Below, one piece after another: positions 1-16,360 of a stretch of DNA of 34,623 nt. The number at the start of each line of letters is the position of its first letter. Positions within the stretch are counted from its first letter, which is position 1. A program made the translations under genes and the position numbers. The stretch comes from an uncultured Lachnospiraceae bacterium. GTDB lineage: Bacteria > Bacillota > Clostridia > Lachnospirales > Lachnospiraceae. The stretch lies in the NCBI GenBank assembly GCA_902760755.1, contig CACWHK010000023.1, positions 1 through 34,623 on the forward strand. Direction: 5' to 3'. The notes beneath the pieces are model-generated. The model was not told where the DNA came from. It worked only from the letters and a program-made list of their open reading frames with translations, and did not search any database.

Positions 1-537
1 AAGACCGGCTTTGTCTTTCAGGATCATCGGCTGCTGCCATGGCTTACCGTGGAGCAGAATATCAAGCTGGCGTTGGAGCCAGGACAGAAGGATGCTGACG
101 CCATCGTGGAGAAATATCTGAAGCTGGTGGGGCTGTCGGAGTTCATTCACTCTTATCCGTCTCAGCTGTCCGGCGGTATGGCCCAGCGTGTGGCTATCGC
201 CAGGGCCCTGGCGAACCAGCCGGATATCCTCCTTCTGGATGAACCCTTTGGTGCGCTGGATGCCATCACCAGAATCTCCATGCAGCAGGAGCTGCAGAAG
301 ATCTGGAAGGAAGAGAAGATCACCATGATCCTCATTACCCATGATATCGCAGAGGCGGTGTTCCTGGGAGAACGGGTGGTGGTCATGTCCAGCAGACCGG
401 GAAGGGTTAAGGATATCGTGGACGTGGATCCGATCTGTCATTATCAGAGAACAGGAAGTGAATTCTCCAGAACCAGAGACCGGATCTATCAGGAATTCTT
501 CCGGGATGAAGAGATGCCCTTTGCATACAATATCTGA
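1..537 (+). CDS. SsuB/TauB-type ABC transporter ATP-binding protein (5' end off window)
   Basis: The reading frame is open from base 1, so the N-terminus, including Walker A, lies outside the window. Seen: a Q-loop (VFQDHRLLPWL), the ABC signature LSGGMAQRVAIARAL, Walker B (ILLLDEPFGALD) and the H-loop (ILITHDIAEAVFL). The Q-loop context and the C-terminal 'VVVMSSRPGRV' stretch are typical of the nitrate/sulfonate/taurine (NitT/TauT) importer ATPases. It would energise uptake of a small anion at the membrane. A permease and a binding protein are expected upstream but are not visible. The next gene is an isethionate sulfite-lyase-like enzyme 93 bp downstream, so a sulfonate such as isethionate is the natural inferred substrate. 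Nitrate or another sulfonate cannot be excluded from the ATPase alone. Confidence 0.9.
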   Translation, partial: KTGFVFQDHRLLPWLTVEQNIKLALEPGQKDADAIVEKYLKLVGLSEFIHSYPSQLSGGMAQRVAIARALANQPDILLLDEPFGALDAITRISMQQELQKIWKEEKITMILITHDIAEAVFLGERVVVMSSRPGRVKDIVDVDPICHYQRTGSEFSRTRDRIYQEFFRDEEMPFAYNI

Positions 538-553
538 GGCTGGTTTCTGAGGA

Positions 554-577
554 AAGCCCTCCGAAGGCATCGGGCTT
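554..577 (+). terminator. Weak hairpin between the ABC ATPase and islA
   Basis: AAGCCC (554-559) pairs with GGGCTT (572-577) around a 12-nt loop in the 93-bp gap. No T-tract follows, so this is at best a processing or attenuation hairpin. The gap otherwise shows only the islA ribosome binding site, AAAGAGGG at 617-624. Confidence 0.25.
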
Positions 578-630
578 AAGCGTGCAGGAAGTATAGATCA
601 GTGATTTTGAAAGAATAAAGAGGGTATATC

Positions 631-3099
631 ATGAGCGAATCTGTATATTCTCCCCAGGAGGAGAGAGTCATTAACAAAAAAGAACCCGTAAACCTGAACC
701 GGGCGACACATCTCATCGGTAAGGTAAGGGGAGTAAGACCGGAAATTGATATAGAGCGTGGTCTGCTTTTCACAAGATCTTTTCGGGAAACCGAAGGAGA
801 GCCCCTGATCGTACGATGGGCGAAAGCCCTCCGGCTGTATGCGGAGGAGTCCTCCATCTACATCGAAGAGGGACAGTTGATCGCAGGCAGAGGCGGACGT
901 GCAGGCAGATACGGAATCCTGTATCCCGAGCTGGACGGTGATACGCTGGGGATCAATATCGCAAAGCTTCCGGGGAGGGCTACCTCTCCTTTTGACATTT
1001 CTGCGGAGGCGGCAGGTAAGGTGAAGGAGGAGATCGAGCCCTATTGGAAGGGAAAAACCTACCACGAGGATCTGGCCAAATCTCTTCCGGAGGATACAAG
1101 GAAGCTCACCTATAATCCGGATGAGGAAGCCTCCTCACGGTTCATTGTCAATGAAACTTCTTCCTTCCGTTCCTCGATTCAGTGGGTTCATGATTATGAG
1201 ATCGTGCTGCAGAAAGGCTTTCTTTGGATCAAAAAGGATTCCGAGGAAAGACTTGCTCTGCTGGACGAGGACAGTGCATATGACATGATGGAGAAGAAGC
1301 CTTATCTGGAGGCGCTGATCATCGTGTCGGACGCTATCATTCACTGGGCAAACCGATATGCGGAAGAGGCAGAGAGACAGGCAGAGGTAGCAGAGGATCC
1401 GGAACGAAGAAAGGAACTCCTTGCCATCGCAGCGAACTGCAGGAAGGTACCGGCATATCCGGCGGAAAGCTTCTACGAAGCCCTGCAGTCCCAGTGGTTT
1501 ACCCAGATGTTTTCACGGATCGAGCAGAAGACCGGGACCATCATTTCCAACGGACGGATGGATCAGTATCTCTATCCGTATTACAAGGCAGATCTGGAGA
1601 AGGGAGCCATCACTCCGTTCAAAGCGCAGGAGCTTCTGGAATGTGTCTGGGTGGAAATGGCAGCCTTCGTGGATCTCTACCTTTCGGAAACCGGGGGCGC
1701 CTTCAACGAGGGTTACGCCCACTGGGAGGCGGTGACTGTGGGCGGTCAGACGCCGGAGGGACTGGACGCAGCAAATGATCTGACCTATATCATTTTAAAA
1801 TCAAAGAGAGATTTCCCTCTGAATTATCCCGACCTTGCGGCACGGATCCATACCGGGTCTTCGAAGAGGTATCTCCATGAGGTTGCGCTGACCATTAAGG
1901 ACGGATCGGGATTCCCGAAGCTCATCAATGACGAAGAAGTGATCCCGCTGCTTCTCTCCAAGGGGGCGGCTTTTGAGGAGGCGTATGATTATGCGGTTTC
2001 CGGCTGCGCAGAGTGCCGGATGCCGAACCGGGACACCTATACCAGCCCGGGAGCCTATATCAATTTCGGGGCGGCTCTCGAGATGACGCTCTATAACGGG
2101 AAGATGCTGAAATACGGAGATGAACTCCTGGGGCTTCCTACCGGAGAGCTGGAGGAGTTTGAAACCTTTGACCAGCTTCTGGAGGCGTACTTAAAGCAGC
2201 AGAAGAACTTTATCCGGCATGCATTTCGTCAGCAGTATCAGATCAATCATCTCAGGGCAAGGCATTTTGCAACTCCGCTGGGATCCGCATTGTCCAAGCC
2301 CAGCCGGGACAGCTACACCGATCTTCATCAGGAGCATGTACCCGGGGGGATCGATCTCGGATACTTTGAATTTATCGGCTTCGGAACCGTGGTGGATTCT
2401 CTGGCAGCCATAAAAAAGGTGGTCTTTGAAGAAAAGAGGATCACTCTCTCGGAATTGAAGGAAGCGCTTCTGCATGATTTTGAGGGTTACGAGGTGATCA
2501 GGGAGCTGATGAAGAATGCTCCCTCTTACGGAAATGATGATTCCTACGCGGATGAGATTGGTCTTCGTCTGGATAAGGAAGCCGGTGATTTCGCAAGAAA
2601 ATACGGAAAGGAATTCGGTGTGCATATCGATCTTCGGTATGTCCCGTTTACCTCTCATGTTCCTTTTGGAAAGGTGGTAAGCGCAACACCCAACGGAAGA
2701 CGCGCCTTTACTCCGCTTTCCGATGGAAGCAGCGCTTCCCAGGGCGCGGATGTGAACGGACCGACAGCCATCCTGCTGTCCAACTTCCGGACCAAGAACT
2801 GGAGCAACAATTACAGGGCTGCAAGACTGCTGAATATCAAGCTCAGTCCGAGGTGTGTTGAGGGAGAGGAAGGAACGGAGAAGCTGGTGGATTTCATCGA
2901 GGCTTTCCGGGATCTGAAGCTGTGGCATGTTCAGTTCAATGTCATCAATTCCGAGACCATGAAAAAAGCACAGAGAGAACCGGAACTTTATCGGGATCTG
3001 CTGGTGAGAGTTGCAGGCTACAGTGCGTATTTTACGGAGCTCTCCAAAGACCTGCAGGATGATCTGATCGCAAGAACCGAGCAGCAGGCAATCGTGTGA
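631..3099 (+). CDS. islA: Isethionate sulfite-lyase (glycyl radical enzyme)
   Basis: This is an 822-aa glycyl radical enzyme, predicted to cleave isethionate to acetaldehyde and sulfite in the cytoplasm. Seen: the radical Gly loop RVAGYSAYF (G796) near the C-terminus and the thiyl Cys loop SGCAECRMPNRD (C459, E461). From memory of the Bilophila enzyme, the functional residues are R189, Q193, W374, C468, E470, R678, F682 and G805. Here R180, Q184, W365, C459, E461, R669, F673 and G796 are the same residues at a constant offset of nine. CutC and other choline-type lyases, HypD and PFL have a different Cys-loop context (for example GCVEP). The related dihydroxypropanesulfonate sulfolyase HpsG is the main alternative. 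The start is set by AAAGAGGG six bases upstream. The activase gene follows. The enzyme should work only without oxygen. Confidence 0.88.
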   Translation: MSESVYSPQEERVINKKEPVNLNRATHLIGKVRGVRPEIDIERGLLFTRSFRETEGEPLIVRWAKALRLYAEESSIYIEEGQLIAGRGGRAGRYGILYPELDGDTLGINIAKLPGRATSPFDISAEAAGKVKEEIEPYWKGKTYHEDLAKSLPEDTRKLTYNPDEEASSRFIVNETSSFRSSIQWVHDYEIVLQKGFLWIKKDSEERLALLDEDSAYDMMEKKPYLEALIIVSDAIIHWANRYAEEAERQAEVAEDPERRKELLAIAANCRKVPAYPAESFYEALQSQWFTQMFSRIEQKTGTIISNGRMDQYLYPYYKADLEKGAITPFKAQELLECVWVEMAAFVDLYLSETGGAFNEGYAHWEAVTVGGQTPEGLDAANDLTYIILKSKRDFPLNYPDLAARIHTGSSKRYLHEVALTIKDGSGFPKLINDEEVIPLLLSKGAAFEEAYDYAVSGCAECRMPNRDTYTSPGAYINFGAALEMTLYNGKMLKYGDELLGLPTGELEEFETFDQLLEAYLKQQKNFIRHAFRQQYQINHLRARHFATPLGSALSKPSRDSYTDLHQEHVPGGIDLGYFEFIGFGTVVDSLAAIKKVVFEEKRITLSELKEALLHDFEGYEVIRELMKNAPSYGNDDSYADEIGLRLDKEAGDFARKYGKEFGVHIDLRYVPFTSHVPFGKVVSATPNGRRAFTPLSDGSSASQGADVNGPTAILLSNFRTKNWSNNYRAARLLNIKLSPRCVEGEEGTEKLVDFIEAFRDLKLWHVQFNVINSETMKKAQREPELYRDLLVRVAGYSAYFTELSKDLQDDLIARTEQQAIV

Positions 3100-3178
3100 G
3101 ATCGAATTCGTAAAATGACATGTGGAAGCTTTTTTTAGCACTAAGCAGAAAGCAGGACGTCAGGAAAAAGGGTATCAA

Positions 3179-4054
3179 ATGAAAGAAGATAAACGGCTAA
3201 TGATATTTAACATCCAGAGGTACTCTCTTCACGACGGAGCAGGGATACGGACGGTGGTTTTTCTGAAGGGTTGTCCCCTACGATGTCTCTGGTGCTGTAA
3301 TCCGGAATCCCAGTCCTTTAACCGGGAACTGATCTACCGGAAGGCGAGATGCATCGGCATGGAACACTGCGGGCTGTGCAGGAAAGCGGATCTACGGGAA
3401 GAGATCGGAACGAAAAATCATTTCCTCGGCGTCCGGACCGGGAGTGACGGAAAAGCACTTCCGGATATGGAGCGTTGTCGGGGAGCCTTTGGACTGGCAG
3501 AGATCTGTCCGGCCAAAGCCTTTGAAGTGGAAGGCAGAGAAATCTCCATAGAAGAGATAATGGATATCGTAAGACATGACGAAGTCTTCTATCGGGGAAA
3601 GGGCGGTCTTACTTTGAGCGGCGGAGAACCTCTGGCGCAGGAAGGAAGTATCGAACTCCTGAAACGGGCAAAAGAAGAATATGTTCATACGGCGGTGGAA
3701 AGCTGTGGATATGTGCCGGAGGACAGGCTCATTCGGGCCGCGGAGTATCTGGATGAGATCTTCTTTGACGTGAAATCTGTAAACAGCGAACAGCATATCC
3801 GTTATACAGGCGTTTCCAACGAACAGATCCTGTCGAATCTGAAAAGCTTAAAGAAAGCATTCCCAACAAAAAAGATTCATGTCCGGACACCGGTCATCCC
3901 GGGATTTAATGATTCGGAGGAGGAGCTATCGGCTATCGAAGCATATCTGGGATCCCTGGGGATCACGGACTGGGAGAAGCTCCCCTATCATACCTATGGA
4001 GTGGGGAAGTACGAAATGCTGGGGAGAGAGTATCTTCTCCCACGTAAGGATTGA
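3179..4054 (+). CDS. islB: Glycyl radical enzyme activase, radical SAM (IslB-type)
   Basis: This is a 291-aa radical-SAM protein that should install the glycyl radical on the upstream lyase, using SAM and reduced ferredoxin. Seen: the GRE-activase N-terminal motif around 'SLHDGAGIRT', the CxxxCxxC cluster motif (C32, C36, C39) within GCPLRCLWC, and the SAM-binding GGE motif in LTLSGGEPL (about 145-152). A Cys-rich insert follows the first motif, with C58, C64, C67, C100 and C110. This is fewer than the eight cysteines of a standard two-cluster ferredoxin insert, so it may carry only one auxiliary cluster. The frame is open upstream to 3122, but the ATG at 3179 has a purine-rich site (GGAAAAAGGG) at the right distance and begins where family homology should begin. 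Placement directly after islA supports the pairing. Confidence 0.88.
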   Translation: MKEDKRLMIFNIQRYSLHDGAGIRTVVFLKGCPLRCLWCCNPESQSFNRELIYRKARCIGMEHCGLCRKADLREEIGTKNHFLGVRTGSDGKALPDMERCRGAFGLAEICPAKAFEVEGREISIEEIMDIVRHDEVFYRGKGGLTLSGGEPLAQEGSIELLKRAKEEYVHTAVESCGYVPEDRLIRAAEYLDEIFFDVKSVNSEQHIRYTGVSNEQILSNLKSLKKAFPTKKIHVRTPVIPGFNDSEEELSAIEAYLGSLGITDWEKLPYHTYGVGKYEMLGREYLLPRKD

Positions 4055-4070
4055 TCGTTCGGCATGGATC

Positions 4071-4096
4071 AAACGCCCTGGGGCAGAGTGGCGTTT
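4071..4096 (+). terminator. Possible attenuator hairpin after islB
   Basis: AAACGCC (4071-4077) pairs with GGCGTTT (4090-4096) around a 12-nt loop, followed by CTATTATTT rather than a clean T-run. It may partly separate lyase/activase expression from the downstream sulfite-handling genes. Confidence 0.35.
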
Positions 4097-4177
4097 CTAT
4101 TATTTGGATAAAGGACACGATGCTTATTCATTTTCGGGCATGTGGCAATTTTTGGTAAATATAGGAGGAAGAATAAC

Positions 4178-4429
4178 ATGGCAGATATCGCATTTACGGT
4201 AGATGACAGAGTGGATATTACAGATGTGGTATGCCCGGTAACCTTTGTGAAAACCAAGATCGCACTGGAGGAACTGGAAGACGGGCAGATCCTTCAGGTG
4301 CATATGAATTCGGGAGAGCCGATCCTGAACGTACCGCGAAGCGTGAAGGATGAAGGACATAAGATATTAAAGATCAGTGAGAATGAAGACGGGACCTACG
4401 AGCTCTACGTTCGGAAGGTCGGAGATTGA
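4178..4429 (+). CDS. TusA/SirA-like sulfur-carrier protein
   Basis: This is an 83-aa protein of the TusA/YedF/SirA fold family. Such proteins carry sulfur as a persulfide or bind partners in sulfur transfer. Seen: C19 in 'VVCPVTFVKTK', in the place where TusA has its CPxP active-site motif. The second proline is replaced (CPVT), but the Cys-Pro and following helix are kept. The C-terminal part (VPRSVKDEGHKIL) also fits the family. The start is the ATG at 4178 behind AGGAGGAA, not the GTG further upstream. It lies between the sulfite-producing lyase and the siroheme sulfite reductase, so a role in handling sulfite or sulfide sulfur is the reasonable inference. The direct partner is not shown by the sequence. 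Confidence 0.75.
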   Translation: MADIAFTVDDRVDITDVVCPVTFVKTKIALEELEDGQILQVHMNSGEPILNVPRSVKDEGHKILKISENEDGTYELYVRKVGD

Positions 4430-4489
4430 TCGGTAGATTGTGATAAAAGCCATGACGGAGATCACCCGGAAGCTAAGAAGGAGAAAACC

Positions 4490-5353
4490 ATGGGAACAGA
4501 TTACGCAACCCTAAAAAAGGGAGGATTTATGCGGCAGAAGCAGAAGGATCATTTTTCCCTTCGCCTGTCAGTGGTAGGCGGCCAGGTGAGCGCGGAGCAG
4601 CTTGTGGCCATCACTAAGGTCGCAAATGAATTCGGCCACGGATATATTCATCTCACCTCCAGACAGGGGATCGAGATTCCGTATATTCAGCTGAAGGATA
4701 TCGATAAGGTGAAGGAAGCACTGGCGGAAGGCGGCGCAAAGCCAGGGGTCTGCGGACCGAGAGTCAGAACCATCACTGCCTGTCAGGGATCGGCAGTCTG
4801 CCCCAATGGCTGTATCGAGACCGAGGAACTGGCCCGGGAACTGAACGACCGGTATTTCGGAAAAGAGCTTCCACATAAATTCAAATTCGGTATCACCGGC
4901 TGTCAGAATAACTGTCTCAAAGCCGAAGAGAACGATCTGGGGATCAAAGGTGGGCTTAAGGTCAGCTGGAAGAAGGAGGACTGCATTAACTGCGGACTCT
5001 GCGAGAAGGTCTGCCGGGAAGGCGCCATCAAGATCGAAGACGGAGAAGTCCTGATCGATCAGGAGCTCTGCAATAACTGCGGAAGATGTGCCTTCAGCTG
5101 CCCGACAGATGCCTATGAGACATCTCCGGTCTATCTCATCAGCTTCGGCGGACTCTTCGGAAATAAGATCAACAAAGGCGAGCCCATCATCCCCTATGTG
5201 GAGGATAAGGAGACGCTGTTCCGGGTATGCGATGCAGCACTGAAATTCTTCGAAGAGAATGCAAATCCGGGAGAGCGGTTCAAGTTCACCATCGACCGGG
5301 TGGGGAAGGACAAGCTGGATGAAGTGATCTGGAAGGCGTACAACAGGGAGTAG
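4490..5353 (+). CDS. Small siroheme sulfite reductase with two [4Fe-4S] ferredoxin clusters
   Basis: This is a 287-aa cytoplasmic enzyme predicted to reduce sulfite to sulfide with six electrons. Seen: an N-terminal nitrite/sulfite reductase ferredoxin-like half-domain, then the siroheme/[4Fe-4S] ligand pattern C98-x5-C104 and C138-x3-C142. Two classical CxxCxxCxxxC ferredoxin motifs follow (C165-C175 and C194-C204). It resembles AsrC and the low-molecular-weight assimilatory-type reductases and is much shorter than DsrA/DsrB or CysI. There are no AsrA/AsrB flavin or NADH partners next to it, so electrons probably come from ferredoxin. AAGGAG at 4478-4483 supports the start at 4490. Whether it serves sulfur assimilation or electron disposal cannot be told from sequence. 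Confidence 0.85.
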   Translation: MGTDYATLKKGGFMRQKQKDHFSLRLSVVGGQVSAEQLVAITKVANEFGHGYIHLTSRQGIEIPYIQLKDIDKVKEALAEGGAKPGVCGPRVRTITACQGSAVCPNGCIETEELARELNDRYFGKELPHKFKFGITGCQNNCLKAEENDLGIKGGLKVSWKKEDCINCGLCEKVCREGAIKIEDGEVLIDQELCNNCGRCAFSCPTDAYETSPVYLISFGGLFGNKINKGEPIIPYVEDKETLFRVCDAALKFFEENANPGERFKFTIDRVGKDKLDEVIWKAYNRE

Positions 5354-5382
5354 AGAAAATTATAGATACAGAGGAATTCATA

Positions 5383-6351
5383 GTGATTAAAGGAAAAAGA
5401 AATATCCGTTTGTTTCTGATACTTTCGATGCTTTTGATCGGGGCATTGTCCCTGGCGGGATGCGGGAAGGAAGCATCCAAAGGCGTGGAAGCGGCAGAAA
5501 CCAAAACGGAAGCGATAGAAAAGAAGCGGGTCATCGCTCTCTCGAAATCCAACGCAGAGCTCTGGCTTCTGGCAGGTGGGGAACTGATCGCTACTTCAGA
5601 GGATGCACTGGTTCTTAAGGGAATCGGAGAAAATGTGGAATCTCTCGGGGATATGGACCATGTAAGTCTGGAAGCCGTAGCCGCACTTGATCCGGATTAT
5701 CTGATCCTCTTTTCCACGGACCCTTCACAAAAGGCACTGGGAGAAGCGGCAGAGGAGCTCGGAATCCCGGTACGGTTCACGAACATCGATAATTTCAGCG
5801 ATTATGAAGAGGTTATGCAGGAATTCACCAGCCTTACCGGAAGAGAGGATCTCTACCGGGAAAATGTCGCAAATGTGAAGGAAAGAATAAACGGGATCAA
5901 GGACAAGGCGGATAAGACACCGGAAGGATCCGAAGAAAGTGACCCGGAGAAAACGGCAGGAGAAGAAACCGGCATAAATGGAAAAACCTATCTTCTTCTG
6001 CATGTATCCGCGACGAAAAGCAAGGTGGAGAAGAATGATTATTTCGCCAGTGAGATCCTGAATGATCTGGGACTGGTGAATGTGGCATCGGATAACAGTA
6101 CATTTAATGAGTTATCCATGGAGGCAATCCTCAGTGCCGATCCGGATTACATTTTCGTGATCCCCAGAGGCGATGAGAAAAAGGCTCTGAAAAGTCTGGG
6201 AGAGAGCTTCACCGGGAATCCGTCCTGGGAGAATCTGTCCGCTGTAAAGAACGGACACTTCAGCATCCTTTCCAAGGATCTCTTCGGCCTAAAGCCGAAC
6301 AACCGCTGGGACGAGGCATATGAGGAAGCCTATCGGCTGCTGTATCAATGA
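5383..6351 (+). CDS. Metal-chelate ABC transporter substrate-binding lipoprotein (BtuF/FepB fold)
   Basis: This is a 322-aa lipoprotein that should capture a metal chelate outside the membrane for the permease encoded next. Seen: a basic N-terminus, a hydrophobic stretch, and a lipobox LAGC with the lipidated Cys at 27. The body has the two-lobe PF01497-type pattern (VIALSKSNAELWLLAGG; LEAVAALDPDYLILF; LSMEAILSADPDYIFVI). A charged Glu/Lys-rich linker lies at about 168-195. It begins at GTG (5383), six bases after GAGGAA. The stop overlaps the next start as ATGA. Ligand (ferric siderophore, haem, cobalamin or another tetrapyrrole) is not determined. The context of siroheme and Fe-S enzymes makes iron the first guess. 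Confidence 0.85.
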   Translation: MIKGKRNIRLFLILSMLLIGALSLAGCGKEASKGVEAAETKTEAIEKKRVIALSKSNAELWLLAGGELIATSEDALVLKGIGENVESLGDMDHVSLEAVAALDPDYLILFSTDPSQKALGEAAEELGIPVRFTNIDNFSDYEEVMQEFTSLTGREDLYRENVANVKERINGIKDKADKTPEGSEESDPEKTAGEETGINGKTYLLLHVSATKSKVEKNDYFASEILNDLGLVNVASDNSTFNELSMEAILSADPDYIFVIPRGDEKKALKSLGESFTGNPSWENLSAVKNGHFSILSKDLFGLKPNNRWDEAYEEAYRLLYQ

Positions 6352-7346
6352 AAAAAAGGAATCGTAAAATCATACTTTTTCTGATCATCCTTCTGATGGG
6401 AGCTGTCGTATGGTCGCTCCTCGCCGGCAATGAAGCCATCTCACCGAAGGACGTGCTGATGGTGCTGGCCGGAAAGATCAGTGACATGAGAAGAGTGATC
6501 GTGTTTCAGGTGAGGATCCCAAGAGTTCTTGCTGCTGCCGCAGTGGGAGCGGCCCTGTCCGTATCCGGATATCTTCTTCAAAGCAATCTGGATAATACGC
6601 TGGCCTCTCCCGGCATCTTAGGGATCAATAACGGAGCCGGACTATTTGTCCTGCTTTCGGCATGCCTTTTCCCGTATCAGTCCGAAGTGAAATGTGTTGC
6701 TGCATTTTTAGGGGCGATGACGGTAACACTGCTTATTTATCTTCTCACAGTAAAAACAGGGATGTCGAAAACCTCGGTGGTTCTATCCGGAGTGGCAGTA
6801 TCAGCATTCTGTATCTCCATCATTGACGTGATCCTTTCTCTGAAGCCGGAGGTGGCGGCGGACAAGGTGGCATTTCAGATCGGAGGCTTCGGTTCCCTGA
6901 ACAGTTCCGTGGTCTACTTTGCGGTTCCCGTGATCGTGGTGGGACTGATCGCTGCGGTGATTTTAGCTCCGTCTCTGGATCTTCTGCTTCTCGGAGACGA
7001 TGTGGCCTTCGGGCTTGGGCTGAATGTAAGACGGTTTCGGGTTCTGCATATTGTATGTGCGGCGCTGCTTTCCGGAGCAGCGGTAAGTATGAGCGGGGTA
7101 TTGGGATTTGTGGGACTCATCGTACCGAATGTGGTCCGACTGTTCCACCTGGGGAAGAGCAGAGAAGGAATCTTTTTCTGCATGACTTTGGGCTCGGCAT
7201 TTCTGCTGATCTGCGACACTCTGGGAAGGATCATCGTCTTCCCTTATGAGCTTCCATGCGGACTGTTCCTCAGTCTGCTGGGCGCCCCGTTTTTGGTGTG
7301 GATGCTGGTCAGAAGAAGAAAGCGGCTGGGAGTTCAGGAAGTGTAG
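6348..7346 (+). CDS. FecCD-family ABC transporter permease
   Basis: This is a 332-aa integral membrane protein of the FecCD/BtuC family, forming the translocation channel for the preceding binding lipoprotein. Seen: about ten hydrophobic segments, the early RIPRVLAAAAVGAALSVSG motif and the family hallmark GVLGFVGLIVPNVVRLF near residue 250. Both are typical of iron-siderophore and vitamin B12 permeases. The ATG overlaps the stop of the upstream gene (ATGA), so the two are translationally coupled. Its last codons lie inside the first copy of a tandem duplication that extends into the downstream gap. Confidence 0.92.
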   Translation: MKKRNRKIILFLIILLMGAVVWSLLAGNEAISPKDVLMVLAGKISDMRRVIVFQVRIPRVLAAAAVGAALSVSGYLLQSNLDNTLASPGILGINNGAGLFVLLSACLFPYQSEVKCVAAFLGAMTVTLLIYLLTVKTGMSKTSVVLSGVAVSAFCISIIDVILSLKPEVAADKVAFQIGGFGSLNSSVVYFAVPVIVVGLIAAVILAPSLDLLLLGDDVAFGLGLNVRRFRVLHIVCAALLSGAAVSMSGVLGFVGLIVPNVVRLFHLGKSREGIFFCMTLGSAFLLICDTLGRIIVFPYELPCGLFLSLLGAPFLVWMLVRRRKRLGVQEV

Positions 7347-7407
7347 AGAATATGAGAAGTCGGAGGATTCCGGAAGTGTACAGAATATGGACAGTCGGAA
7401 GGATTCC
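7337..7407 (+). repeat. Imperfect tandem duplication spanning the permease stop codon
   Basis: Copy 1 (7337-7371) and copy 2 (7372-7407) both run from GGAAGTGTA through GAATATG to GGATTCC, with four mismatches and one inserted base. In copy 1 GTG TAG ends the permease. Copy 2 reads GTG TAC and lies in the 95-bp gap before the ATPase gene. It is probably a local slippage duplication. Confidence 0.8.
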
Positions 7408-7441
7408 GAGAGAGTAAAAATGTGGAAACGGGGGATTCCAT

Positions 7442-8203
7442 ATGATCCGGGTTCAAAATATGAAAACAGGATATTTCGGGGAGATCACCTTTCTGGCAGA
7501 GGAGGCGTCCTTTCAGGAGGGGGCGATCTCTACCATTATCGGCAGGAACGGCAGCGGGAAGAGTACATTTCTGAAAGCGCTGGCGGGACAACGCCCGTAT
7601 GAGGGGTCCATTCTGATCGACGGACAGGAATTACGGGATCTTGATCCCTGGGAACGGGCAGGGCGGATCGCCTATCTACCGCAGAATGTCCGGACTGTGA
7701 GACTGAATGTCCGAACACTGGCAGAACATGGAAGATTCTCCTATCATGGAACATTTCGAAGGCTGTCAAAGGAAGATGAGAAATATGTGGAGGAGGCCTT
7801 GCAGCTGACAGGGATGAAGGACTATGAGGATCGGGATCTTACGTGTCTTTCCGGCGGAGAGCTGCGGAGAGCATATCTTGCCATGGTGATCGCACAGAAC
7901 AGTTCCATGATTCTTTTGGATGAGCCTACCACCTTTCTGGATATTCAGTATCAGGAGGAGTTTTACCGGATCCTGGAGAAACTGAAGGAGGCAGGGAAAG
8001 GCATCATTACAATCTGTCACGATATAGAGCAGAGCTTTGCGTACAGTGACAGTATCTTTCTTATGGAAGAGCATAGACTGATTTCCGGGGTAAAACCGGA
8101 GGAACTGGTTTGGGATGAACGCCGGCTCAGAGCGAATTTTGCAGTGGCACTGAAACCCAGTGACCGGAAGGATTCACTGTATCCCTATGTTCTGATCCGA
8201 TAG
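7442..8203 (+). CDS. FecE/FepC-type ABC transporter ATP-binding protein
   Basis: This is a 253-aa ATPase energising the FecCD-type importer. Seen: Walker A (IIGRNGSGKSTFLKAL, about 31-46), a Q-loop (YLPQNVRTVRLNV), the signature LSGGELRRAYLAMV, Walker B (MILLDEPTTFLDI) and the H-loop (IITICHDIEQSF). The LDIQYQ continuation after Walker B is typical of the iron-siderophore/B12 subgroup. The start ATG at 7442 follows a GGGGGATT site. It is separated from the permease by the 71-bp tandem duplication but clearly belongs to the same transporter. The siroheme synthase gene follows 25 bp downstream. Confidence 0.93.
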   Translation: MIRVQNMKTGYFGEITFLAEEASFQEGAISTIIGRNGSGKSTFLKALAGQRPYEGSILIDGQELRDLDPWERAGRIAYLPQNVRTVRLNVRTLAEHGRFSYHGTFRRLSKEDEKYVEEALQLTGMKDYEDRDLTCLSGGELRRAYLAMVIAQNSSMILLDEPTTFLDIQYQEEFYRILEKLKEAGKGIITICHDIEQSFAYSDSIFLMEEHRLISGVKPEELVWDERRLRANFAVALKPSDRKDSLYPYVLIR

Positions 8204-8228
8204 ACGGATCTTCCGTTGGAGGCATACC

Positions 8229-8813
8229 ATGGCATATTTTCCCATGATGATCGAACTGAATGATAGACCGGTACTTGTGGTTGGCGGAGGGGAGGAAGGA
8301 ACGAAGAAGGTTCAGATCCTTCAGTCCTTCGGAGCAAGGATCACACTGATCGCAGAGGACGCAAGCGAAGAAGCAAAACGTCTGTCGGAGCGTTTTATCG
8401 AGGGAAGTTTCCTTGAAGCGGATATTGACAGGGAGAATTTTACGCTTGTGGTTGCGTCCACGGATGACCGGAATCTCAACTCCCGGATCAGCAGCCTTGC
8501 AAAGGTAAGACGGATCCCGGTAAATGTGGTTGATGATGTGGAACTTTGCACATTTATCTTTCCAGCGGTTTTAAAGGAACGGGATGTGGTCTGCGCCGTA
8601 TCCAGCGGAGGGAAGAGTCCTTACGTGGCGCAGTATGTCCGGGACCGCCTCAGGGAATCCCTGCCGGAAGATATCGGGGAGATCAATGATAAAATGGGAG
8701 AACTCCGGATCCGTGCGAAGGAGGATTATCCGGAAGCGAAGGATCGCCGCAGGTTTCTGAAAGACAAATTCAATGAACTGATGAAAAACGGGGAAAGATA
8801 TTCAGAGAAATAA
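8229..8813 (+). CDS. Precorrin-2 dehydrogenase / sirohydrochlorin ferrochelatase (CysG N-terminal, Met8-type)
   Basis: This 194-aa protein matches the N-terminal half of CysG or yeast Met8. It oxidises precorrin-2 to sirohydrochlorin with NAD and inserts iron to give siroheme. Seen: a substrate-facing start (FPMMIELNDRPVLVVGGG) with the NAD-binding glycine loop GGGEEGTKKVQIL, VASTDDRNLNSRI, VNVVDD and the conserved SSGGKSP motif. The uroporphyrinogen methyltransferase half is absent, so that step must be encoded elsewhere. The ATG follows GGAGGC. It closes the block that starts with the sulfite-lyase, and siroheme is the cofactor of the sulfite reductase upstream, which explains its position. 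Confidence 0.92.
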   Translation: MAYFPMMIELNDRPVLVVGGGEEGTKKVQILQSFGARITLIAEDASEEAKRLSERFIEGSFLEADIDRENFTLVVASTDDRNLNSRISSLAKVRRIPVNVVDDVELCTFIFPAVLKERDVVCAVSSGGKSPYVAQYVRDRLRESLPEDIGEINDKMGELRIRAKEDYPEAKDRRRFLKDKFNELMKNGERYSEK

Positions 8814-8927
8814 ACCCAAAGAAGGCTAAGATCACATCCCTTATTTTACGGGCACTACGGCACTCTATGGCACAGGACGAAACTCCCGGGAGTGTCGCCC
8901 CATAAGTAACAAAATACCAACTCCTGC

Positions 8928-8966
8928 GATGGGCAGTCACGTAAGTGGCTGTCCATCTTCCTTTTT
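8928..8966 (+). terminator. Rho-independent terminator closing the sulfonate/siroheme block
   Basis: A 13-bp stem joins 8928-8940 (GATGGGCAGTCAC) to 8945-8957 (GTGGCTGTCCATC), with two G-U pairs and loop GTAA. It is followed by TTCCTTTTT. The bases 8814-8927 upstream hold only loosely paired sequence that I could not assign. Confidence 0.8.
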
Positions 8967-8977
8967 GCGTAAATACT

Positions 8978-10904: not shown

Positions 10905-10957
10905 CAGAGCATAAGCTTTGACGAAAACGGGTGGCAAAAAAGGAGGAGGAACGATCG

Positions 10958-13675
10958 ATGGCAAAGGGGACCATACAATTTTCGGGAACGGATGAATGCT
11001 TCGTTCTTTCATCGGCAGAGAATACGAATTATCTGTACTTTCCGATCGCGGGGGAGGCAGGACTGAAGGCCTGTGTCACTCCGAATCTCGGCGGAGATTC
11101 CAAGCTGGATCAGGAGCATTTTGTCCTGGAGCCGGTGAGCGTGGAGAATCTCCATAACAACAAGAATACAAGAAACTTCTGGCTTGGCTTTGGCGACGGA
11201 CGGACCTGGTCCGCTGTGGGAAGCTCGGCAGAGCAGGAGGCGGAGCGCTTCACAAAGGATCAGGAGGAGAGCCGGGTCGAGGGCGGATTCCTCTGGCAGA
11301 AGGCGGTAAGAGCCTCGAGGAAGTACGGGATCGAGGCGGAGGTCACCTCCTTCGTTCCGGTGGAAGCAAATGTGGAGATCATGCAGGTAACACTTCGAAA
11401 TACCTCTGACAAAGCAGTTGAGTTTTCGCCCATCGCCGTGATCCCGCTCTACGGACGGTCCGCGGATAATCTCCGGGATCATAGAAATGTAACCTCCATG
11501 CTGCATCGTGTCAGCGTAACGGAGGAGGGCGTACAGGTGAAGCCCACCATGTCCTTTGATGAGAAGGGACACCGTCTGAATCAGATGATCTACTATGTTC
11601 ATGGCTCCGAAGGGAACGGAGACCGGGCAGTAGGCTTCTTCCCCACCACGGAAAGCCTGATCGGCGAGGGAGGCAGCTTCCTTCGTCCGGAGGCAGTGAT
11701 CCTGGATAAGGAAGGTCTGCCCGCAGGAACGAAGATCGACGGACGTGAGGCCGTGGGCGGATTAAAGTTTAAGAAGAAAACGCTTCTTCCGGGAGAGGCT
11801 TGCACCTATATCCTCCGGATCGGTGCAGAGACGGAAGAAGAGAAGATCAGTGCAGCAGATGCGGCATACCGTACGGAAGCGGATGTGACGGATGCATTGG
11901 CGAAGACCTCGGGCTACTGGAAGAACAAGGTAAATGTACATTTCCATACGGGTGATGCGGACTTCGACCGCTTCATGGCATGGGTATCCTTCCAGCCCTT
12001 CCTTCGCCGGATCTACGGCTGCTCCTTCCTCCCATATCACGATTACGGACGTGGCGGAAGAGGCTGGCGTGATCTCTGGCAGGACTGCCTGTCGCTGCTC
12101 TTCATGGAGCCGGACAATGTACGGAAGATGATCGTTGCGAATTTCGGAGGCGTACGGGCGGACGGAACGAATGCCACCATCATCGGTGACGGCCTCGGGA
12201 ACTTTATCGCAGACCGGAACGGGATCGCCCGTGTATGGATGGATCATGCATTCTGGCCCTTCCGGACCCTGAAGCTTTATATCGACCAGACCGGAGATAT
12301 CGGAATCCTGGATGAAACAGCAGGCTACTTTAAGGATCCGCAGGCAAGCCGTGCCACCGATATCGATAAGGACTGGAAGACATCGGACGGCAACTGGCTG
12401 AAGACTGCCGACGGAGAGGTCTACAGCGGAAGCATTATCGAGCATCTGCTGGTGGAAACCCTCACCGCCTTCTGTGAGGTGGGAGAGCACGGGATCATCC
12501 GTCTTCGCGGTGCAGACTGGAATGACGCACTGGATATGGCGGCAAAGCGGGGCGAGAGCGTTGCATTTACCTTCGCCTACGCCATGAACCTGGAAGAGAT
12601 CGCGGATACCCTGGAGGAATACGGAGCAAAGACCGGAAGAAGTACCGTATCCGTGGCAAAGGAGCTTACAAGCCTGATCGAAATGGACGAGGCGGTCTAC
12701 GGGGATGCGGCAAAGAAGCTGGAGGCACTGGATGCCTACTGCAACAGCTGTGTACGGAATATCTCCGGGGAGCAGGAGGAGTTCGGGATCGATCAGATTG
12801 CAGCAGCGCTTCGGAAGATGGCTGCCTGGGAGAAGGACTTCCTTCGCGGACAGGAGTGGATCGACGGCGCCGAGGGCGAGGGCTGGTTCAACAGCTATTA
12901 TGATGATCATGCAAACCGCGTGGAGCGGTATACGGAAGAGGACGCGGATGTGCGGATGATGCTCACCGGTCAGGTATTTGCGGTAATGAGCGGAACGGCG
13001 GAGGACAGTGAGGTCGGAAAGATCGCGAAGGCGGCGGATCACTATCTCTACCGGAAGGAGATCGGCGGCTACCGCCTCAATACGGACTTCCGGGAGCTGA
13101 AGATGGATATGGGCCGGATGTTCGGCTTCTCCTACGGGGAGAAGGAGAACGGTGCAGTCTTCTCCCACATGGCCGTGATGTACGGAAATGCCCTTTATAC
13201 CCGGGGCTTTGCGAAGGAAGGCTACAAGGTTCTGAAATCCCTGTCCGACACGTCTCTTAACTTCGAGGTAAGCCGCATGTACCCGGGCATTCCGGAGTAC
13301 TTCAATATCGACGGACGGGGCATGTATCCGTATCTTACCGGAGCAGCCTCCTGGTATCTGATGACCATGATCCTGGAGGTATACGGAGTTCGCGGAAGGA
13401 ACGGAGACCTCTGGTTCAACCCGAGACTTCTGGCAGAACAGTTTGATGAGAAGCAGGAAGCAGCCATCGAGCTCTTCTTTGCAGGAAAGCCGCTTCGGGT
13501 GGTTTATCGGAACCCGAAGGGACTGGATTACGGAAGCTACCGCGTGGGCAGCATTTCCGTAAATGGAGCTACTACTATGTGTCAGGCAGGAGAGGAAGCT
13601 GTGCTCAGCCTGGATACCGTGAAAGCTTTTGGGGAAAGTGTAACAGAGATTACCATCGTATTGGAGGAAAACTAA
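10958..13675 (+). CDS. GH94-family glycoside phosphorylase (cellodextrin phosphorylase-like)
   Basis: This is a 905-aa enzyme of the GH94 phosphorylase fold, which splits beta-glucosidic bonds with phosphate to give a sugar 1-phosphate. Seen: an N-terminal beta-sandwich region, then the (alpha/alpha)6-barrel core with HDYGRGGRGWRDLWQDC and GADWNDALDM. D520 of the latter sits where the GH94 general acid lies. It is about 100 aa longer than the neighbour and has a different sequence around the catalytic loop. The ATG at 10958 has a near-perfect site, AAGGAGGAGGA (10940-10950), so the GTG at 10931 is not the start. The stop is immediately followed by the next start. Cellodextrin, laminari- or other beta-glucan oligosaccharides are candidate substrates. 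Specificity cannot be read by eye. Confidence 0.82.
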   Translation: MAKGTIQFSGTDECFVLSSAENTNYLYFPIAGEAGLKACVTPNLGGDSKLDQEHFVLEPVSVENLHNNKNTRNFWLGFGDGRTWSAVGSSAEQEAERFTKDQEESRVEGGFLWQKAVRASRKYGIEAEVTSFVPVEANVEIMQVTLRNTSDKAVEFSPIAVIPLYGRSADNLRDHRNVTSMLHRVSVTEEGVQVKPTMSFDEKGHRLNQMIYYVHGSEGNGDRAVGFFPTTESLIGEGGSFLRPEAVILDKEGLPAGTKIDGREAVGGLKFKKKTLLPGEACTYILRIGAETEEEKISAADAAYRTEADVTDALAKTSGYWKNKVNVHFHTGDADFDRFMAWVSFQPFLRRIYGCSFLPYHDYGRGGRGWRDLWQDCLSLLFMEPDNVRKMIVANFGGVRADGTNATIIGDGLGNFIADRNGIARVWMDHAFWPFRTLKLYIDQTGDIGILDETAGYFKDPQASRATDIDKDWKTSDGNWLKTADGEVYSGSIIEHLLVETLTAFCEVGEHGIIRLRGADWNDALDMAAKRGESVAFTFAYAMNLEEIADTLEEYGAKTGRSTVSVAKELTSLIEMDEAVYGDAAKKLEALDAYCNSCVRNISGEQEEFGIDQIAAALRKMAAWEKDFLRGQEWIDGAEGEGWFNSYYDDHANRVERYTEEDADVRMMLTGQVFAVMSGTAEDSEVGKIAKAADHYLYRKEIGGYRLNTDFRELKMDMGRMFGFSYGEKENGAVFSHMAVMYGNALYTRGFAKEGYKVLKSLSDTSLNFEVSRMYPGIPEYFNIDGRGMYPYLTGAASWYLMTMILEVYGVRGRNGDLWFNPRLLAEQFDEKQEAAIELFFAGKPLRVVYRNPKGLDYGSYRVGSISVNGATTMCQAGEEAVLSLDTVKAFGESVTEITIVLEEN

Positions 13676-16090
13676 ATGAAGTACGGTTTTTTTGATGATG
13701 CAGCAAGAGAATATGTGATCGACCGCCCGGATACACCGGAAGCATGGGCCAACTATCTTGGCTCTCCGGAGTACGGAGCCCTGATCTCAAATAATGCAGG
13801 TGGCTACAGCTTCGCCAAGTCCGGAGCCAGCGGACGGATCCTTCGGTATCAGTTCAACAGCTTCGACCGTCCGGGACGGTATATCTATCTTCGTGACAAT
13901 GACACGAAGGACTACTGGTCGGCATCCTGGCAGCCGGTGGGCAAGCCGCTGGATCAGTATAAGAGCGAGTGCCGTCACGGCCTCGGCTACACCCTGATCA
14001 AGGCGGATTATGCAGAGATCGAGAGCGTTGCCTCCTACTATGTTCCGAAGGATAAGGAGTATGAGGTATGGGCGCTGAAGGTAACAAATAAGTCCGACAA
14101 GGCACGGTCCCTGACCGTGACCGGCTACGCGGAGTTTACGAACAACAGCCACTATGAGCAGGATCAGGTAAACCTGCAGTATTCGCTGTTCATTTCCAGA
14201 ACCTACTTCGAGAAGAACCGGGTGATGCAGCAGATCCACGGTAATCTGGATGCCTATCCGGAGGGAGTTCTGATGGATGGCAAGAAGGTGCTGGAGCGCT
14301 TCTTCGGTATGGCAAAGTCCGGGGTGGACTCCTGCTGCGGAGATAAGACCGCCTTCCTCGGTGCCTACCATGATTACCGCGACCCTGAGGGTGTTGCGGA
14401 GGGTAAGCTGTCCGGAAAGATGAACTACAACCAGAACTCCTGCGGTGGTCTGGCAACGGTAGTGACGCTGGCTCCCGGAGAGACGAAGGAAGTGATCTTC
14501 CTTCTTGGCGAGAAGTACAGTGCAGAAGCTGCAGAGATCATTGCAAAGTATGATGCGGAAGACGGTATCGTTGCTAAGGAGATCGGAGAGCTTCGGGATT
14601 ACTGGGAGAAGTACCTCAGCCGGTTTGTCGTAAAGACACCGAGTGCAGAGTTCAACTCCATGATGAATGTATGGCATGCTTATAACTGCTTTATGACATT
14701 TATCTGGTCCAGAGCAGCCTCCTTCATCTACTGCGGTCTCCGGAACGGCTACGGCTACCGTGATACCGTACAGGATATCCAGGGCGTGATCCATCTGGCT
14801 CCCGAGATGGCAGAAAAGCAGATCCGCTTCATGCTGTCGGCACAGGTGGATAACGGCGGCGGACTTCCGCTTGTAAAGTTTACACACAATGCGGGCCATG
14901 AGGATACACCGGATGATCTTTCTTACGTACAGGAGACCGGACATCCCGCATACCGTGCGGATGATGCGCTGTGGCTCTTCCCCACGGTTTATAAGTATAT
15001 CACCGAGACCGGGGACCTTTCCTTTATTGATGAGGTGATCCCCTATGCGAATAAGGATGAGGGAACGGTATATGACCATCTGAAGAGAGCCATCGACTTC
15101 ACCTTAAAGCATCTTGGACCCCACGGCATGCCGGCAGGGCTTTATGCAGACTGGAATGACTGCCTCCGCCTCGGTGCGAATGGAGAGTCCTCCTTCGTGG
15201 CACTGCAGTTTGTCTATGCACTGGAGATCCTGCAGAAGTTTGCGGAGTACAAGAAGGATGACGCGTACATCACCTTCCTTCAGGATGAAGCAAAGAAGAT
15301 GAAGGCTCTGATCAATGAGATCTGCTGGGACGAGGACCGCTTTATCCGCGGCTTTGCGGAGAACGGAACCGTTGTGGGCCGGAAGGCAGACCCGGAGGCA
15401 AATATGTGGCTGAATCCCCAGAGCTGGGCAGTTATCTCCGGACAGGCGGACGAAGAGCAAAGAAAACTGGCCATGGATTCGGTTTACAACATCCTGAACA
15501 CCAGGTACGGTGCGATCCTGATGGATCCTCCGTTCCATGCACATGCCATCGACGGCGCACTGGCAGTGGGCTACAATGCGGGAACCAAGGAGAACTCCGG
15601 AATCTTCTCCCAGACCCAGGGCTGGCTGATCCTGGCAGAGTCCCTGATGGGACACGGAAACCGTGCATTTGAGTACTATATGGAGAACTGCCCGGCAGCC
15701 TTCAACGACCGTGCAGAGATCCGTCAGATGGAGCCCTACTGCTTCGGACAGTTCACGGAGGGTAAGGCAAGTCCCTGCTTCGGTCAGTCCCATGTTCACT
15801 GGCTGACCGGAACCGCATCCACCGTAATGGTAGGCTGCGTGGAAGGAATCCTGGGCTTCCGCCCCGACTTCTACGGACTGCATATCTCCCCGTCCATTCC
15901 GTCGGATTGGGACGGCTTCGAGATCGGGAAGGAGTTCCGCGGAAAGAAGCTTACGATTAAGGTACTGAACCCCGACCATAAGGAGTCCGGCGTGAAGACA
16001 CTTTCCCTGAACGGAAATGTACTGGAGGGCGATTACATCCCTGCAGAGCTTCTGAAGGACGAGAACGAGGTTGTTGTAACCCTCGGATAA
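13676..16090 (+). CDS. Cellobiose phosphorylase (GH94)
   Basis: This 804-aa cytoplasmic enzyme is predicted to convert cellobiose plus phosphate into glucose 1-phosphate and glucose, saving ATP. Seen: the characteristic N-terminus MKYGFFDDAAREYVI followed by NYLGSPEYGALISNNAGGYSF, very like clostridial/ruminococcal cellobiose phosphorylases. The barrel contains RNGYGYRDTVQDIQG and ADWNDCLRLG. D492 of the latter is close to the catalytic D490 I recall for the Cellulomonas enzyme. Length is normal for the family. It starts one base after the upstream stop, with its site GGAGG at 13663-13667 inside the upstream gene, so the two phosphorylases are co-translated. Other disaccharide specificities in GH94 remain possible. 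No sugar transporter lies in the window. Confidence 0.88.
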   Translation: MKYGFFDDAAREYVIDRPDTPEAWANYLGSPEYGALISNNAGGYSFAKSGASGRILRYQFNSFDRPGRYIYLRDNDTKDYWSASWQPVGKPLDQYKSECRHGLGYTLIKADYAEIESVASYYVPKDKEYEVWALKVTNKSDKARSLTVTGYAEFTNNSHYEQDQVNLQYSLFISRTYFEKNRVMQQIHGNLDAYPEGVLMDGKKVLERFFGMAKSGVDSCCGDKTAFLGAYHDYRDPEGVAEGKLSGKMNYNQNSCGGLATVVTLAPGETKEVIFLLGEKYSAEAAEIIAKYDAEDGIVAKEIGELRDYWEKYLSRFVVKTPSAEFNSMMNVWHAYNCFMTFIWSRAASFIYCGLRNGYGYRDTVQDIQGVIHLAPEMAEKQIRFMLSAQVDNGGGLPLVKFTHNAGHEDTPDDLSYVQETGHPAYRADDALWLFPTVYKYITETGDLSFIDEVIPYANKDEGTVYDHLKRAIDFTLKHLGPHGMPAGLYADWNDCLRLGANGESSFVALQFVYALEILQKFAEYKKDDAYITFLQDEAKKMKALINEICWDEDRFIRGFAENGTVVGRKADPEANMWLNPQSWAVISGQADEEQRKLAMDSVYNILNTRYGAILMDPPFHAHAIDGALAVGYNAGTKENSGIFSQTQGWLILAESLMGHGNRAFEYYMENCPAAFNDRAEIRQMEPYCFGQFTEGKASPCFGQSHVHWLTGTASTVMVGCVEGILGFRPDFYGLHISPSIPSDWDGFEIGKEFRGKKLTIKVLNPDHKESGVKTLSLNGNVLEGDYIPAELLKDENEVVVTLG

Positions 16091-16264: not shown

Positions 16265-16280
16265 ATTTATCAAATATATG

Positions 16281-16350
16281 AATACGGCAAACCCGGGGAA
16301 ACCCGGCGACGCAAAGCTATAAGGGCCTGTAAAATGGTAGCCAGTTGCAC
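16281..16350 (+). ncRNA. Cyclic di-GMP-I (GEMM-I) riboswitch aptamer
   Basis: The segment contains the GEMM-I hallmarks in order. GGCAAACC is followed by a stem CGGG-GAAA-CCCG with the GAAA tetraloop that docks in this fold, then GACGCAAAGC, then an AGGGCCT arm. It ends with ATGGTAGCCAG and TTGC, which can pair with the 5' GCAA. It lies directly after a consensus promoter and before an intrinsic terminator and a small HTH gene, the usual transcriptional-control layout. Aptamer ends are approximate. Confidence 0.9.
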
Positions 16351-16360
16351 ATTCACCGAG

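Follow-up and report, generated by a model that had tools for sequence, protein, structure and literature searches.

A probable anaerobic sulfur-assimilation gene cluster with an IslA-type lyase and a small siroheme sulfite reductase in an uncultured Lachnospiraceae bacterium

The isethionate sulfite-lyase system IslAB (IseGH) has been described in Bilophila and Desulfovibrio, where, in the part of the literature available, it occurs with DsrAB, AdhE, sulfite respiration and, for Bilophila, microcompartments. So far, IslA has mostly been interpreted as generating sulfide in the gut. Reportedly, a 2019 study by Xing and co-workers deals with Clostridium butyricum, a fermenting gut anaerobe that employs IslA and IslB for taurine sulfur assimilation. 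An earlier note on the DNA described here had taken the lyase to be studied in sulfite respirers only, which was not supported. The title of the paper (Xing et al., 2019, Biochem J 476:2271) is on the anaerobic assimilation of sulfur from taurine; the available part of a text citing it names the genes of the taurine cluster tpa, tauF, iseH and iseG. In the accessible portions of the literature, a TauF-type reductase was also described, IslA homologs in Clostridia were already noted in 2019 and isethionate was described, in a 2026 paper, as being formed when sulfoquinovose is broken down in the rumen. In this study, we analyzed 34,623 nucleotides from an uncultured Lachnospiraceae bacterium (hereafter, the window), which are the entire contig C23 of a draft genome of 2.58 Mb that is 88% complete, and which begin with a nine-gene block including islA and islB homologs.

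This block, at positions 1-8813, probably makes up the half of an anaerobic sulfur-assimilation cluster that produces sulfite and reduces it; from this cluster, the organism would gain sulfur, not electron-sink capacity. The block was confirmed as first described. Its nine open reading frames (ORFs) are all on the + strand with intergenic gaps of -4 to 95 bp, and the ordered series from SsuB to SirC that had been proposed agreed in both order and identities with the ORFs and with family profiles. The genes for the lyase, the activase, TusA and the reductase are consecutive, with gaps of 22-87 bp. The features of the block are as follows.

1-537, + strand: SsuB-type sulfonate ATP-binding cassette (ABC) ATPase; 5' end cut by the contig end; 88% identity to SsuB of locus L032
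631-3099, + strand: IslA-type isethionate sulfite-lyase, a glycyl radical enzyme (11/11 active-site residues; tree)
3122-4054, + strand: IslB-type radical S-adenosylmethionine activase (TIGR02494, 298 bits, above cut-off; NF048010, 329.9 bits, under the cut-off of 430); a later ATG start is possible at 3179
4142-4429, + strand: TusA-family sulfur carrier (PF01206, 70.5 bits)
4490-5353, + strand: small siroheme-[4Fe-4S] sulfite reductase with inserted ferredoxin-type clusters (profile match, conserved cysteines)
5383-6351, + strand: FecB/IsdE-type substrate-binding protein of a metal-chelate importer (PF01497; IsdE model 78.6 bits, below cut-off)
6348-7346, + strand: FecCD-type permease, FecD-type (PF01032, 280.8 bits)
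7442-8203, + strand: FecE-type importer ATPase (best model FecE, 183 bits, below the cut-off of 375)
8229-8813, + strand: SirC/CysG N-terminal-type precorrin-2 dehydrogenase for siroheme synthesis (TIGR01470, 152.8 bits, cut-off 62.3)

The best solved structures for the lyase of the window were 7kq3, the isethionate sulfite-lyase of Bilophila (BwIslA), and 5ymr, which we take to be the Desulfovibrio enzyme DvIseG. Eleven active-site positions were compared (BwIslA numbers R189, I192, Q193, T312, W374, C468, E470, R678, V680, F682 and G805), and the lyase was identical to 7kq3 and 5ymr at all of them. Thus equivalents of the glycyl radical G805, the thiyl C468 and E470 were present, as were the sulfonate-binding Arg189, Gln193 and Arg678 and the packing residues Ile192, Thr312, Trp374, Val680 and Phe682. 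The structure 6lon, presumably HpsG, departed from this set at three positions, 192, 312 and 682. Among 83 aligned rows, 60, the window included, had all 11 residues and 20 differed by I192L only; one row had I192L together with V680I, and two (L037 and L039) showed another pattern. According to the part of the BwIslA structure paper that was available, activity was lost upon the changes R189E, Q193A, R678E, C468S, E470Q, V680A and G805A and was lowered by changes of F682, W374 and I192, so that changes at 10 of the 11 positions compared abolish or lower activity.

In a tree of 89 rows, the lyase fell into a 61-row clade with a support of 100, whose members are mostly apparent fermenters. The tree was made by a quick method, in which 6lon and the outgroups form long branches, and the placement of HpsG is thus unsure; L038 and L066, whose lyases are in two pieces, and L033-L036, which are the same contigs as L043, L044, L108 and L086, were left out. 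Judged by its sequence, the lyase has an IslA-type active site and belongs to a lineage of its own. Its NCBIfam label was '(2S)-3-sulfopropanediol dehydratase' (NF048011, 1403.7 bits, cut-off 1000). Because BwIslA (7kq3) matched the same model with 1481 bits, the name does not discriminate, and the label taken literally was rejected.

This label bears on an alternative in which the lyase acts on a C2/C3 sulfonate other than isethionate, for example dihydroxypropanesulfonate, that is processed by the same downstream route. HpsG is the best NCBIfam model, the substrates of HpsG and IslA overlap according to the accessible part of the literature, and the binding protein of the importer, SsuA, was matched to the SsuA family only and is not substrate-specific. 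The three active-site departures of HpsG, compared with none in the lyase of the window, the match of BwIslA to the HpsG model and the genes in related loci that fit a conversion of taurine to isethionate (see below) all argue against it, and we consider this alternative improbable.

Several observations were made on related glycyl radical enzymes. A third subgroup, about 56% identical, was found in L037 (7360-9828), L039 (12522-15011) and, in two pieces, L038, and those of L037 and L039 have the active-site pattern RLQAWCERVQG. In L037 and L038, SsuABC adjoins the enzyme and genes of the 2-oxoacid:ferredoxin oxidoreductase type are nearby; in L039, the enzyme is grouped with MetY, ThiF, JAMM, TusA and the sulfite reductase (SiR). 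Perhaps its substrate is another sulfonate. Moreover, IslA-type lyases were found in five Bifidobacterium records (L065, L069, L072, L073 and L079), four of which had a class III aminotransferase and distant TauABC-like genes nearby and none of which had the small reductase clade; we know of no report of IslA in Bifidobacterium. Finally, six Oscillospiraceae loci (L093, L101, L105, L109, L111 and L113) share a block of three genes, encoding about 450, 550 and 450 amino acids (aa), before the aminotransferase and the lyase.

The sulfite reductase of the window has the cysteine pairs C98/C104 and C138/C142 as well as six ferredoxin-type cysteines, which were conserved among 19 rows in those covering them. 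By inference from the sequence, its layout would be that of group III Dsr-LP. Its scores were 149 bits with the AsrC model (cut-off 324), 59 bits with dsrA (cut-off 393) and 77 bits with dsrB (cut-off 342). It was the single PF01077 (NIR_SIR) protein found in its own genome, where no AsrB over the cut-off was found either, the best score being 61 bits. DsrAB was thus rejected on the dsrA and dsrB scores and the lone NIR_SIR protein, and AsrABC on the AsrC score and the missing AsrB (AsrA was not searched). The single PF01077 protein and the dsrA/dsrB scores bear out a small, non-DsrAB reductase as previously suggested.

Position 1 of the window, at which the block had been thought to begin, is the contig end, and the cluster continues for 13.7 kb on contig C41 of the same genome. 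Read in reverse, C41 ends with LysR, SsuA, SsuC and the first 51 residues of SsuB; SsuB of the window starts at residue 77 of the 254-aa protein of a relative. The closest named relative, L042, is from a goat-omasum assembly of Eubacterium sp. RGIG2873. C41 1-3399 matched L042 9295-5897 with 98.9% identity and base 1 of the window matched L042 9371, which leaves an assembly gap of about 75 bp inside SsuB; by this alignment with L042, C41 and the window are contiguous within SsuB. The cluster thus comprises 22 genes in about 22.6 kb, with the block of the window as its right half. SsuA and SsuC, which the earlier note had advised to look for upstream, were found both on C41 and in L042, where the order is LysR-SsuA-SsuC-SsuB-IslA. 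Three pieces of L042, with identities of 96.7-98.4%, together covered window 1-7355 and 7440-8823, and about 126 extra bases lie in L042 between TusA and the reductase.

Before LysR, C41 encodes, in the first part, an Rrf2-family regulator, MetY, a JAMM protease, a ThiS-ThiF-rhodanese fusion and the shell of a family 2A encapsulin, and then, up to LysR, a cysteine desulfurase, a serine acetyltransferase, a ThiS ending in GGGR, a ThiF without rhodanese and a JAMM-TusA fusion. In L042, MetY, JAMM, the ThiF fusion and the encapsulin lie on the other side, after SirC, which are the same parts in a changed order. The encapsulin shell scored 489.2 bits with NF041162 (cut-off 380) and matched PF19307; the cysteine desulfurase, its putative cargo, scored 794.1 bits with NF041166, against a cut-off of 800, over residues 10-625 of 627, and has a desulfurase domain that starts at residue 250, after what may be the long N-terminal extension of encapsulin cargo. 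Among the named loci described below, 4 of 80 (L042, L044, L057 and L058) had the encapsulin. The ThiS proteins of L138 (5250-5456), L032 (11411-11671), L033 (10188-10394) and L034 (374-580) end in GGG plus one residue, R or Q, consistent with the neighboring JAMM protease trimming them. The JAMM-TusA fusion, a single reading frame at L138 3696-4406, joins carrier-processing and sulfur-relay steps; in an alignment of 78 residues with the fusion on C41, TusA of the window was 73% identical to its TusA half.

The linkage of lyase and reductase was examined in two sets, a family set of 397 genomes and the best 80 of 337 named loci, with the neighborhood taken as within 10 kb of the lyase. The two sets overlap, as L043, L044, L086 and L108 are contigs of genomes G234, G380, G325 and G183. 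In the family set, the lyase was counted at an identity of at least 56% (next match 38%) and the small reductase, by hand, at an identity of at least 52% (next match 39%), with a fragment in G038 excluded; other homologs were labeled by BLAST to reference proteins with self-set identity thresholds. The lyase was found in 9 and the small reductase in 42 of the 397 genomes. All nine lyase-bearing genomes had the reductase, in comparison with 33 of the other 388. The two genes were within 10 kb of each other in six of the nine genomes and on separate contigs in three (G325, G103 and G368); MetY adjoins the reductase in these three as well (L159-L161). Among the named loci, the small reductase was found in 14, MetY in 13, ThiS/ThiF in 13 and at least one assimilation gene in 23 of 80. 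The linkage in relatives for which the earlier note had called was therefore observed, in 6/9 family genomes and 14/80 named loci. On the tree, reductase linkage occurred in 17 of 83 rows and required at least 10 changes, a number obtained without a shuffled control and inflated by truncated loci being scored as unlinked. Because of these changes, inheritance of the linkage as a single intact block is unlikely.

The gene orders of individual loci varied. That of L032 is LysR-SsuA-SsuC-SsuB-IslA-IslB-MetY-ThiS-ThiF-JAMM-TusA-SiR-HemA-SirC-HemC, and that of L035 is IslA-IslB-aminotransferase-SsuC-SsuA-SsuB-Fe-ADH-MetY-SiR-TusA, with Fe-ADH for an iron-type alcohol dehydrogenase. In L036, IslA is accompanied by Fe-ADH, an aminotransferase, a sulfonate-type importer and a cysteine synthase. 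Such an importer was found in 41 of the 80 named loci, and the aminotransferase and Fe-ADH together in 19. The aminotransferase is not named taurine-specific by NCBIfam and the Fe-ADH is under the SarD cut-off; together, they may carry out the steps from taurine to isethionate. The aminotransferase was present in 3 of 10 lyase genomes. No homolog of it was found at 1e-60 in the window's own genome, and entry of taurine was rejected there for this reason.

As a control, the surroundings of the reductase were inspected in the 20 best-ranked of the 33 family genomes with the reductase and without the lyase. G147, whose match begins at contig base 127, was skipped, one of two places in G135 was taken, and the other 13 of the 33 genomes are outside the sample. 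MetY, ThiS/ThiF or JAMM was beside the reductase in all 20 genomes; in detail, ThiS/ThiF was found in 19, JAMM in 18, TusA in 17, MetY in 17 and 3'-phosphoadenosine 5'-phosphosulfate (PAPS) reductase in 7. As these neighborhoods are assimilatory, the reductase seems to belong to an assimilation module irrespective of where its sulfite comes from. In the window's own genome, no match was found to PF01507 (PAPS reductase), to which CysD presumably belongs, or to PF01747 (Sat-type ATP sulfurylase). Strong PF01507 matches were present in five of the nine lyase genomes, with a weaker one in a sixth. It thus seems that the lyase supplies sulfite to the assimilation module as an alternative or in addition to other sources.

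Based on these results, the following route is proposed. SsuABC would import isethionate, IslB would install the glycyl radical on IslA, and IslA, as its active-site identity suggests, would cleave isethionate to sulfite and acetaldehyde. The small siroheme reductase would then reduce sulfite to sulfide with electrons from ferredoxin, which is the likely donor because an AsrB-type partner over the cut-off was missing from the genome. SirC would contribute to the siroheme of the reductase, and the Fec-type importer probably supplies iron. TusA and the ThiS-type carrier may take up the sulfur, with TusA as a relay, after JAMM has trimmed ThiS to its glycines and ThiF has adenylated it. The HcyS pathway of Wolinella is the model for such a carrier route, and by analogy MetY would make homocysteine from the thiocarboxylate or from free sulfide. 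Finally, serine acetyltransferase and the encapsulated cysteine desulfurase would connect the cluster with cysteine and, as the presumed encapsulation of the desulfurase suggests, probably with a sulfur reserve. The reading from sulfonate through sulfite to sulfide, already put forward, is supported. The choice between assimilation and electron disposal, which had been left open, now leans to assimilation, favored by MetY, serine acetyltransferase, ThiS/ThiF/JAMM and the context of the reductase in lyase-less genomes.

A more far-reaching version, to which we give slightly less credence than doubt, is that the 22 genes form one cluster from sulfonate to protein-enclosed reserve. Isethionate from sulfoquinovose-degrading rumen neighbors would be imported, desulfonated by the glycyl radical lyase, reduced by the small Fsr-like reductase, passed as ThiS thiocarboxylate to MetY and banked via the cysteine desulfurase in the family 2A encapsulin, and the lyase would, on several occasions, have taken the place of PAPS reductase or been added to it as a plug-in source of sulfite.

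Several observations weigh against assimilation of isethionate sulfur. The lyase is outside the nine-row clade of DvIseG and BwIslA; its substrate is therefore a predicted one, and we call it IslA-type rather than a proven ortholog. No assimilation gene was within 10 kb in 57 of the 80 named loci. Of these 80 loci, 46 are truncated, and among the 34 with full flanks (at least 9.9 kb on both sides), an assimilation gene was found in 13 and none in 21. The lyase-bearing genomes G183 and G103 carry AsrB over the cut-off on other contigs, and such hosts thus have further means of reducing sulfite. Detoxification of sulfite is another function that small siroheme reductases can have, free sulfide could be used alongside the ThiS/MetY route, and the absences from the window's own genome are soft at its level of completeness.

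Electron disposal, in which the reductase turns isethionate-derived sulfite into excreted sulfide as a sink for fermentation electrons, is unlikely, and we would give it very little weight. The DsrAB/AsrC-like features and ferredoxin-type clusters of the reductase, the AsrB of G183 and G103 and the service of IslA to sulfite respiration in Bilophila (from the accessible part of the literature) would fit it. It is contradicted by the lone PF01077 protein in the genome, where neither DsrAB nor an AsrB over the cut-off was found, by uptake through an ATP-driven importer, by MetY, serine acetyltransferase and carrier genes within the cluster and by the assimilatory surroundings of the reductase in the sampled lyase-less genomes. 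Two separate modules, with a reductase for sulfite detoxification or sulfate assimilation and IslA beside it by accident, would accord with the 33 lyase-less genomes, the PAPS reductase near 7 of the 20 sampled and the three genomes with separate contigs, yet are scarcely credible given the linkage in both sets and in several parts of the tree, the lack of PF01507 and PF01747 matches and the close spacing of the four genes from lyase to reductase.

The promoter and terminator scans showed no excess over chance; a terminator-like hairpin at 8928-8957 belongs to a kind of site of which 10 were found and 9.5 were expected by chance. Rfam searches over six sources found no regulatory RNA in the window's cluster that could serve sulfur control. 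Only two matches were obtained, both outside it: c-di-GMP-I, a riboswitch at window 16276-16352 that precedes an operon encoding an ABC-2 type exporter and a two-component system, and GA-cis in L032, barely above the threshold. CymR was rejected as the identity of the Rrf2 regulator, which is named to the family only because the CymR model scored 68 bits (cut-off 195).

The cluster ends at SirC, as synteny with L042 stops at window 8823. The break lies just past SirC (window 8823-8970 in comparison with L042 18238). The hairpin lies within a repeat of about 70 bp (window 8898-8970), further copies of which are found close to the distal end of C41 and in the L042 genome; the repeat is possibly a mobile or rearrangement-prone element. 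Further along the window, two tandem GH94-type phosphorylase genes are located at 10931-16090, the first of which is divergent from the family profile.

If fermenters take isethionate for cell sulfur, metagenomic islA alone does not mean sulfide production, and its neighbors, DsrAB on the one hand and the MetY/ThiS/small-reductase module on the other, may separate sulfide producers from assimilators. If true, the proposed route would also provide a substrate and a testable role for family 2A encapsulins in anaerobes and for small Fsr-like reductases, present in about a tenth of the family set.

Similar to the systems of Bilophila and Desulfovibrio, the cluster contains the IslAB enzyme pair, with all 11 examined active-site residues in common. 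Different from them, it has a small reductase, SsuABC and sulfur-assimilation genes, and its lyase is on a separate branch of the tree. The cluster of Xing et al. starts from taurine, which the genome studied here, lacking the aminotransferase homolog at 1e-60, would not. Isethionate reductase IsrBHDK with SsuCAB of Rhodobacter, in the available part of its description, likewise combines anaerobic assimilation of isethionate sulfur with uptake by SsuCAB; IsrBHDK is a nitrogenase-like enzyme, whereas the enzyme here is a glycyl radical lyase. The accessible part of PMC1779556 (Genome Biol 2006) lists in row 4e the same module of ThiS, JAB, E1, SirA (TusA), sulfite reductase and O-acetylhomoserine sulfhydrylase (MetY), in neighborhoods with sulfate activation and reduction genes, where the module described here is with a sulfonate lyase. 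The row 4e set, including an E1 without rhodanese, is complete on C41 and the window, the second E1 having rhodanese, and the lyase-less reductase neighborhoods are of the type catalogued there. In the family 2A encapsulin survey PMC8346489, as far as its text was available, the systems occur with serine acetyltransferases and rhodaneses, as here, and a Synechococcus family 2A encapsulin is upregulated in sulfur starvation; unlike those systems, the encapsulin here shares a cluster with a sulfonate lyase. No description of the lyase in combination with the ThiS/JAMM/MetY module or with an encapsulin was found in the literature, in a search that left subscription papers mostly uncovered and is weak evidence of absence. 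Each half of the cluster is thus a known kind of system, and what is new is in the detail, namely the direct entry of isethionate, the sulfur-carrier coupling and the link to an encapsulin.

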